Assembly (NCBI GenBank): GCA_023259175.1
Contig: JAHFQV010000001.1
Coordinates: 42,411 to 106,410 of the forward strand
Length of the DNA: 64,000 nt
Source: Oxalobacteraceae bacterium
GTDB taxonomy: Bacteria; Pseudomonadota; Gammaproteobacteria; Burkholderiales; Burkholderiaceae_D
Direction: 5' to 3'
The notes under the pieces are model-generated. The model was not told the DNA's origin. It did no database searches and saw nothing but the letters and a program-made list of their open reading frames with translations. The position numbers and the translations under genes are program-made. Shown one piece after another: positions 49,427 to 51,284 of the stretch (within the stretch, counting starts at the first letter, position 1; each line of letters begins with the position of its first letter).

Positions 49427-49868
49427 GATAAGCCTAGAGGGGAAAAGTGAATGCAGGATTATAGCTGCTAAGAAAGCTCGCGCCAAATTGAAAAAAAGCC
49501 GAGCTTAGCACCGACGTGAACGCCGGAACGGCCTGGCAAATTTGGTGCACGCCAAAGAACTCACCAGCATACCTTTTTCCTAATCCATATTTAGTTATAA
49601 TCTATTGGATTCTAATTTTTCATAGTGATAAACTTCGCTTCGTTGTTGAAGTTATGTCGGCCTAGCGGCCATTTAAACCGAGATTTTCCATTAGGATTTG
49701 AGATGATGGCGGATGCACTTTTCGAGGCAGGTTTGGCGTGAATGAGGCGCTCATGGCTAGCCATGAGCAACGAAGAACGTCAAAAATGACCGGAAATGCG
49801 CCGCCAGCACTTAAATAGCAGCTTTGCTGCGCCTAATGGAAAATCTCGGTTAAACTCAGGAGAATTCA
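49427..49868. promoter_or_regulatory. Divergent region between psd and the AhpC gene
   Basis: This 442-base region has no gene. TATAAT at 49596-49601 is a good -10 candidate for the AhpC gene. TTAG-N7-CTAT-N7-TAAT at 49591-49616 resembles part of an OxyR site but overlaps the -10 box. The rest is a long imperfect palindrome (49676-49851) that ends 17 bases before the start codon. Confidence 0.5.
49676..49851. repeat. About 176-bp long palindromic element in the AhpC gene leader
   Basis: The ends AACCGAGATTTTCCATTAGG and CCTAATGGAAAATCTCGGTT are perfect 20-base inverted repeats. Near the centre lies a perfect 20-base palindrome, GCTCATGGCTAGCCATGAGC (49749-49768). The flanks between are also partly complementary (GGCGGATGCA with TGCGCCGCC). 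The centres of outer arms and inner palindrome differ by only 5 bases, so the whole element can fold as one hairpin. No coding capacity is seen. It resembles a MITE or a dispersed palindromic repeat. Confidence 0.8.
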
Positions 49869-50417
49869 ATGAAAACAGTAGGACAAAAACTCGACGCATT
49901 TAGCGTACCCGCAGCCAAACCCGGTTTTAATCATCACGAAGAAAACGGTGTATCGGCCTTCGAAAATATCACCGAAGCCTCATTCCCAGGCAAGTGGAAA
50001 ATCATCTATTTCTACCCCAAAGATTTTACCTTTGTCTGCCCGACAGAGATCGTCGAATTTGCAAAATTAAATGACGATTTCGCAGAGCGTGACGCAGTCT
50101 TGATGGGCGGCTCCACCGACAATGAATTTTGTAAGCTAGCATGGCGTCGTGAGCACAAAGACCTCGACAAACTTAACCACTACGCCTTCGGTGATGCAAC
50201 CGGCGCCCTAGTCGATATGTTAGGTGTGCGTGACGTGAATGCAGGCGTGGCTTTACGTGCGACTTTTGTGGTTGATCCAGATAATGTGATTCAGCACGTT
50301 TCAGTTAATAATTTAAATGTAGGACGTAATCCTACAGAAATTTTGCGGATTTTGGATGGTTTGCAAACGGATGAGTTATGTCCATGTAATCGCAAAGTGG
50401 GCGGTGAAACATTGTAA
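49869..50417 (+). CDS. ahpC: AhpC/Prx1-type peroxiredoxin
   Basis: Typical 2-Cys peroxiredoxin of 182 residues, preceded by AGGAG. The peroxidatic Cys lies in FYPKDFTFVCPTEIVEF and the resolving Cys in DELCPCNRKVGGETL. GGSTDNEFCKLAWRREH and LRATFVVDPDN are typical of the AhpE-like/AhpC group that pairs with AhpD. No ahpF flavoprotein is near; the AhpD-like gene downstream is the likely reductant partner. The upstream palindrome and downstream 98-bp repeats flank this gene on both sides, so its mRNA ends are expected to be highly structured. Confidence 0.94.
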   Translation: MKTVGQKLDAFSVPAAKPGFNHHEENGVSAFENITEASFPGKWKIIYFYPKDFTFVCPTEIVEFAKLNDDFAERDAVLMGGSTDNEFCKLAWRREHKDLDKLNHYAFGDATGALVDMLGVRDVNAGVALRATFVVDPDNVIQHVSVNNLNVGRNPTEILRILDGLQTDELCPCNRKVGGETL

Positions 50418-50421
50418 ATCC

Positions 50422-50700
50422 AATTTTCGGGCGCAGCGCGTTGTTGCAAATCCTCGCAATATAGACATATTGCTGCGGTTTGCGCCTAGCGCTGCATCCC
50501 GAGAATTGAATTTACGATGAATTTTCAGGCGCAGCGCCTTGTTGCAAATCCTCGCAATATAGACCTATTGCTGCGGTTTGCGCCTAGCGCTGCACGCCGA
50601 GAATTGAATTTACGATGAATTTTCGGGCGCAGCGCGTTGTTGCAAATCCTCGCAATATAGACATATTGCTGCGGTTTGCGCCTAGCGCTGCTCGTCGAGA
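50422..50700. repeat. Three tandem 98-bp palindromic repeats
   Basis: Copies begin at 50422, 50520 and 50618 (AATTTTCGGG/AATTTTCAGG); the third ends after about 83 bases. Copies differ by only a few bases. Each contains an imperfect hairpin: GCGCAGCGC, GCAAA, CGCAATAT, loop AGAC, ATATTGC, GTTTGC, GCGCTGC. Unit length is not a multiple of 3, and no open frame spans them. Confidence 0.93.
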
Positions 50701-50707
50701 CTCGTAT

Positions 50708-50729
50708 AAAACCCGCTAGAGCGGGTTTT
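50708..50729 (+). terminator. Terminator-like hairpin before the AhpD gene
   Basis: AAAACCCGC and GCGGGTTTT form a perfect 9-pair stem with a TAGA tetraloop. The U-run is four bases, part of the stem. It would end or reduce transcripts coming from ahpC. Confidence 0.65.
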
Positions 50730-50756
50730 AAAATCTTTATTTAATAGGTGAAAACT

Positions 50757-51284
50757 ATGGAATTTCTATCTTTAATTAAATCTTATGTGCCGGACTATGC
50801 AAAAGACATTCGCTTGAACGTGGATAGTACGATAGCGCGTTCGAGTTTGGATGCGTCTGATGCGGTCGGCGTGGCGTTGGCGGCGGCGTTTGCGGCTAAG
50901 AATCAGACCTTGATCAAAGCCTTTAAAGAGGCGGGTGTTCTGTCGCCGGAAGAGGTGCAGGGGGCGATGACGGCAGCGTCTTTGATGGGGATGAATAATG
51001 TCTGGTATCCTTTTGTCGAAATGGCCGATGACGAGGATTTGAAAACCCAAGGTGCGCAATTAAGGATGAATGCCTACGCGAACAATGGTGGGCTCGATAA
51101 GCGCCGTTTCGAAATGTATGCGCTGGCCGCTTCGATTATCGGAAAGTGTCATTTTTGCGTGAAGTCGCATTTTGATTTGCTCAAGAAAGAAGGTATGTCG
51201 GCGACCCAGTTACGCGATGTCGGTCGGATTGTCGCTGTGGTGAATGCTTTGGCACAGGTATTGACGGCGGAAAATATCGTTTAA
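50757..51284 (+). CDS. ahpD: AhpD-like alkylhydroperoxidase (carboxymuconolactone decarboxylase family)
   Basis: I use ATG 50757, preceded by AGGTG; the track takes a GTG three codons earlier. The 175-residue all-helical protein matches AhpD in length. The catalytic CxxC with downstream His is GKCHFCVKSH near residue 130, and a Glu-rich proton relay segment lies before it. In mycobacteria AhpD reduces AhpC using lipoyl-linked electrons from dihydrolipoamide dehydrogenase and SucB; the same is inferred here from the adjacent ahpC. The gene follows ahpC after the repeat array. Confidence 0.92.
   Translation: MEFLSLIKSYVPDYAKDIRLNVDSTIARSSLDASDAVGVALAAAFAAKNQTLIKAFKEAGVLSPEEVQGAMTAASLMGMNNVWYPFVEMADDEDLKTQGAQLRMNAYANNGGLDKRRFEMYALAASIIGKCHFCVKSHFDLLKKEGMSATQLRDVGRIVAVVNALAQVLTAENIV

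Follow-up and report, generated by a model that had tools for sequence, protein, structure and literature searches.

A foldback element upstream of an ahpC-type gene is a probable member of a genus-wide family of IS1380-type MITEs

The eukaryotic piggyBac elements target TTAA, and the Correia repeat enclosed elements (CREE) of Neisseria have TA as their target duplication. The IS1380 transposases are used as the prokaryotic outgroup of piggyBac (PMC10813416), and ISEcp1, a member of the IS1380 family, is flanked by 5-bp TATGA duplications (PMC2887853). In the gonococcal mtrCDE locus a Correia element lies between the promoter and the genes, and RNase III cuts within the element (PMC2649163; reviewed in PMC10969869). 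Among IS-derived bacterial MITEs, MITEPye1 of Paracoccus yeei combines terminal repeats like those of a full IS with direct repeats and a long predicted RNA stem-loop (PMC11578231).

The element described here lies upstream of a peroxiredoxin gene in a 64-kb window, which is the whole stretch of DNA that was analysed; the closest loci with a named source belong to Burkholderiales and other betaproteobacteria. We read it, with a probability of roughly 0.93, as an IS1380-type MITE, i.e. one copy of a dispersed non-autonomous family. It is a known kind of element represented by a new family member, and a limited search of the open-access literature recovered no description of an IS1380-derived MITE. 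The features of the locus are as follows:

49591..49605, plus strand: OxyR-like half site TTAGTTATAATCTAT, with one mismatch to ATAGNTNNNANCTAT, conserved upstream of ahpC in congeners
49605..49634, plus strand: putative ahpC promoter, placed by conservation in congeners
49673..49677, no strand: target-site duplication TTAAA, left copy
49678..49849, plus strand: probable foldback MITE, full-length, 172 bp, with IS1380-type ends, recognised by its matches in its own genome, identical 5-bp flanks and fold
49678..49695, plus strand: left terminal inverted repeat CCGAGATTTTCCATTAGG, common to autonomous IS1380-family elements
49749..49768, no strand: central perfect 20-bp palindrome GCTCATGGCTAGCCATGAGC, the hairpin apex
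49832..49849, minus strand: right terminal inverted repeat, equal to CCGAGATTTTCCATTAGG on this strand
49850..49854, no strand: target-site duplication TTAAA, right copy
49858..49862, plus strand: ahpC Shine-Dalgarno AGGAG, at a distance of 8 bp from the hairpin
49869..50417, plus strand: AhpC-type peroxiredoxin gene, 182 aa, by best NCBIfam match

Like the insertion sequences of the IS1380 family (NF033539, e.g. ISEcp1), this element has 5-bp target duplications, and the members of that family found in this study match its ends over 15-18 bp; unlike them, it measures 172 bp, is devoid of a transposase gene and has an interior that is an almost complete palindrome. With CREE, which are sometimes found in transcribed mRNA leaders, it shares the short foldback form and the many copies, but it differs from them in its ends, in its 5-bp TTNAA target duplication and in that a consensus scan detected no promoter inside it. 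MITEPye1 and other IS-derived bacterial MITEs are comparable in their IS-like terminal repeats, direct repeats and long predicted stem-loop; however, MITEPye1 is of IS1182 type with 1-3 chromosomal copies, whereas the present family is of IS1380 type with tens of copies. The piggyBac elements of eukaryotes have a similar TTAA-like target preference but duplicate the 4-bp TTAA rather than a 5-bp TTNAA, and the likeness is one of target and of the cited outgroup placement only.

The first-pass annotation had recognised a single large hairpin with 20-bp perfect terminal arms around a 20-bp perfect central palindrome, and all three hold. The arms, AACCGAGATTTTCCATTAGG at 49676-49695 and CCTAATGGAAAATCTCGGTT at 49832-49851, constitute the only separated 20-mer and reverse complement within 300 bp of each other in the entire window, while the central palindrome by itself would stand out less, as 20 Markov windows contained 4 events of this sort. 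The region 49660-49870 is predicted to fold into one long hairpin of -95.8 kcal/mol (z = -9.3, with 0/200 shuffles as low), and the 172-bp element alone reaches -88.9 kcal/mol with 69 pairs; the predicted pairing spans nearly the whole element, and a small hairpin, GCAGC-TTT-GCTGC, branches off the 3' arm. An alignment of copies revealed that the letters of the apex palindrome vary by subfamily and that its pairing is preserved.

The same annotation had taken the element to extend over 49676-49851 with terminal repeats of 20 bp; here the arms stand but the ends do not. Alignment of the flanks of different copies showed that the transposable unit begins with CCGAG and finishes with CTCGG, the 5-bp direct duplication lying beyond. 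Hence, the terminal inverted repeats proper are 18 bp long and perfect, and the outermost two letters of each 20-bp arm (AA/TT) belong to the TTAAA duplication outside 49678-49849. That these flanks are duplications rather than terminal repeat follows from the fact that unusual targets such as CTCAG and ATAAT are also duplicated. There is no ORF of at least 80 aa within the element, in agreement with the earlier view that it has no coding capacity, and no Rfam family matches it. A micro-ORF reading (ATGATGGCGGATGCA...) was discarded on the grounds of a 1-bp indel between subfamilies, seen by eye in the alignment, which breaks the frame.

Sequence searches recovered 42 matches to the element in its own draft genome (233 contigs, 95.8% complete) at E<=0.001. 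Identical 5-bp flanks were found for 23 of 36 element pairs in the loci of this genome and for 19 of the 31 at congener loci (42/67 in total), as well as for 36 of 60 further copies. The target consensus is TTNAA, and non-consensus targets, namely CTCAG, CTGAG, ATAAT and CTTAT, are likewise duplicated. Of 60 genomes sampled, 16 carry the family (own genome counted), all of a single genus; the sample covered 24 other genera of the order, none of which yielded it, and no copy was found in the plasmid collection. In the own genome one subfamily comprises many copies at different sites with mutual identities of ~95-99%, which suggests a fairly recent spread, and a second subfamily has a different core. 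The copy at ahpC is at most 84% identical to the other full-length own-genome copies compared and shows 91-94% identity to congener copies. Since it is this distant from its own-genome relatives and its subfamily is found mainly in congeners, the insertion at ahpC may be old. Copies adjoin many unrelated genes; by rough ORF-based gene calls, those of the own genome lie mostly between convergent or codirectional genes, with only 3, the ahpC copy among them, between divergent ones.

Several variants accompany these copies. Internally deleted versions of 93-100 bp occur at L036 2427-2519, L043 2445-2544 and L166 2837-2929, and retain the 5-bp duplications, which are exact at L036 and L043 and differ by one mismatch at L166. 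Congener G014 has another foldback family, of ~232 bp, with the same IS1380-type ends as the 172-bp family and a different interior (L178 3649-3881, L179 755-986 and 3478-3710, L182 4044-4275, L183 10834-11069); the same strand is the more stable one in all five of its folded copies, and the copy in L178 is nested within a copy of the 172-bp family.

As to the transposase, we took the end sequence of the element and its 5-bp duplications as pointing to IS1380. A search with the PF13701 profile uncovered a complete 1517-bp IS1380-family element in congener G024 (C229), with the terminal inverted repeat CCCAGATTTTCCATTAG[A/G] and the duplication ATAAA, whose 442-aa transposase scores 249.9 bits against NF033539, the IS1380 equivalog model, for which the cut-off is 180. 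Other families of the order also have elements of this kind, 1492-1529 bp long; their transposases are 65-76% identical, and their ends and 5-bp duplications are similar. The identity to the ends of the MITE extends both to the G024 element and to those at the level of the order, and in one of the latter the right end equals the left end of the MITE over 22 nt. Across these full insertion sequences the duplications are ATAAA, TTCAA, ATTAA, TTAAT, CTCAT and TTCAT, thus 5 bp like those of the MITE and at a similar target. Within the own draft genome there was neither a PF13701 match nor a protein match to an IS1380-family transposase, and a scan of the fetched own-genome and congener loci for pairs of ends 600-4000 bp apart yielded spurious pairs only and no autonomous partner. 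A MITE mobilised by IS1380 usually, though not necessarily, has such a partner in its genome. Because no such transposase was detected there, the family would currently be an orphan in this genome or would have its transposase in the unassembled part, and for the same reason the source of transposase in this genome is one that we infer. A broken IS1380-family transposase remnant was observed in another congener (L200 / G029:C12 161102-162353), in pieces 63-73% identical, one of them with an internal TAG.

The hairpin is conserved beyond the copy at ahpC. In an alignment of 25 copies, standard pairs account for 98.1% of the cells across 62 pairs, double changes are seen at 24 of the 62, and the pairing measures all lie above 500 shuffles (0/500) and slid controls. 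In 97 of the 98 distinct copies it is the plus strand that gives the better fold of the two, a figure that by itself could stem from one ancestor. As all 98 copies in a single alignment were too mixed for a common structure, wobble pairs were analysed in an 81-copy subfamily, on a tree of these copies and with a structure whose definition gave G.U no preference over A.C. On internal branches, 18 changes lead from Watson-Crick pairs to G.U and 2 to A.C; on terminal branches the counts are 58 and 32. When the pairs of a stricter set were bootstrapped, P was about 0.004 and 0.018, respectively. The analysis is exploratory: it covers one subfamily by parsimony, the numbers are moderate, and the test was devised once the first result had been seen. 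The unpaired columns of this subfamily show no mutational bias toward that direction. Since selection on the DNA, as on a cruciform, would be strand-symmetric, the pattern hints at a single-strand, perhaps RNA-level, constraint on the family.

Tentatively, the family might then be maintained as an RNA structure: propagating copies would accept G.U and not A.C in the plus-strand hairpin, and the RNA of that one strand would aid propagation or host tolerance; we think this unlikely. A little less likely again is co-option of the family for a cis-acting RNA function, with the hairpin in 3' ends or leaders stabilising or processing host mRNAs. Such co-option would be compatible with the MITE identity and would explain why the fold of one strand is maintained, and the standard and doubly changed pairs, the superior folding of the plus strand and the excess of G.U all speak for it. 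However, the copies are non-independent through their ancestry, and their orientation relative to codirectional neighbour genes looks balanced at about 5:5, so that host transcripts would hold either strand.

Being short, palindromic, multicopy and mostly intergenic, the element could also recall a REP/ERIC-like repeat moved by a RAYT-type (Y1) or other non-IS1380 transposase, but its 5-bp duplications, which to our knowledge REP elements do not make, and the ends that it has in common with complete IS1380-family elements render this highly improbable.

We now turn to the IS1380-type MITE in its setting at ahpC. A strongly conserved block upstream of the gene at 49591-49634, TTAGTTATAATCTATTGGAT...CATAGTGATAAACT, emerges from about 20 aligned congeners. 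It holds the OxyR-like half site (its reference ATAGNTNNNANCTAT being what we take to be the OxyR half-site consensus), which overlaps a plausible -35 (TTGGAT, 49605-49610) followed by an 18-bp spacer and a -10 (TAAACT, 49629-49634); a strict sigma-70 consensus scan did not call this promoter. The transcript would start near 49641. Since the conserved box and promoter sit upstream of the element, which ends 19 bp upstream of the ahpC ATG, the insertion probably falls inside the 5' leader and would have lengthened it from ~50 to ~230 nt. The ~20 aligned congeners all retain the OxyR-like box and the promoter in this region, and none has the element; the congener leader next to the insertion is too diverged for the exact pre-insertion TTAAA to be recognised.

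The ahpC gene is followed by an AhpD-family gene. The AhpC-type protein reaches 117 bits against an NCBIfam AhpC cut-off of 272, and its AhpD neighbour 124 bits against a TIGR00777 cut-off of 192. As both proteins score well below the cut-offs of the models, 49869-51284 may encode a divergent AhpC/AhpD pair. Between the two genes, at 50422-50700, are 2.8 tandem copies of a palindrome-rich 98-bp unit, which has two more matching places in the genome.

The first-pass annotation had weighed a non-autonomous mobile element captured as a 5' leader against a regulatory RNA controlling peroxiredoxin synthesis, expecting many copies with target-site duplications in the one case and conservation only at ahpC in the other. 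It is the former that emerged: the matches in the own genome, many with identical 5-bp flanks, the corresponding IS1380-family elements and the element-free ahpC of congeners all point to the mobile element. The latter, a dedicated and for instance redox-responsive ahpC leader RNA merely resembling a transposon, could draw on the position of the element just upstream of the Shine-Dalgarno and on a fold with strong support and compensatory changes; but those changes are between copies at unrelated loci beside many different genes, and no congener examined has the element at ahpC, making this reading scarcely credible.

Long duplexes in mRNA leaders are typically substrates of RNase III, and folding predicts one in the putative ahpC leader. 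Predicted accessibility of the Shine-Dalgarno is 0.57 with the element and 0.56 without it, and a model in which the Shine-Dalgarno is sequestered was rejected on this account; because this site lies outside the hairpin and its accessibility is unchanged, no direct translational switch is predicted. We propose that an IS1380-family transposase acting in trans would have moved the MITE into a TTAAA in the ahpC 5' leader, downstream of the OxyR-like-regulated promoter and ahead of the Shine-Dalgarno. An ahpC mRNA started at that promoter would then carry a ~170-nt hairpin, with the ribosome-binding site as accessible as before the insertion. The long duplex would probably be bound or cut by RNase III, as with Correia elements in Neisseria mRNAs, and the outcome would be that mRNA stability is altered more than translation. 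By this analogy, we put an effect of RNase III on ahpC at about even odds, and it is possible that the element affects the ahpC mRNA incidentally.

With these observations a genus-wide MITE family can be tied to a transposase class, IS1380, and to a target rule, TTNAA with a duplication of 5 bp. Its copy at ahpC would represent a natural experiment in the effect of a very long leader hairpin on a peroxide-stress gene. The wobble pattern, with its strand bias, offers a testable hint that such foldback elements may be selected as RNA.
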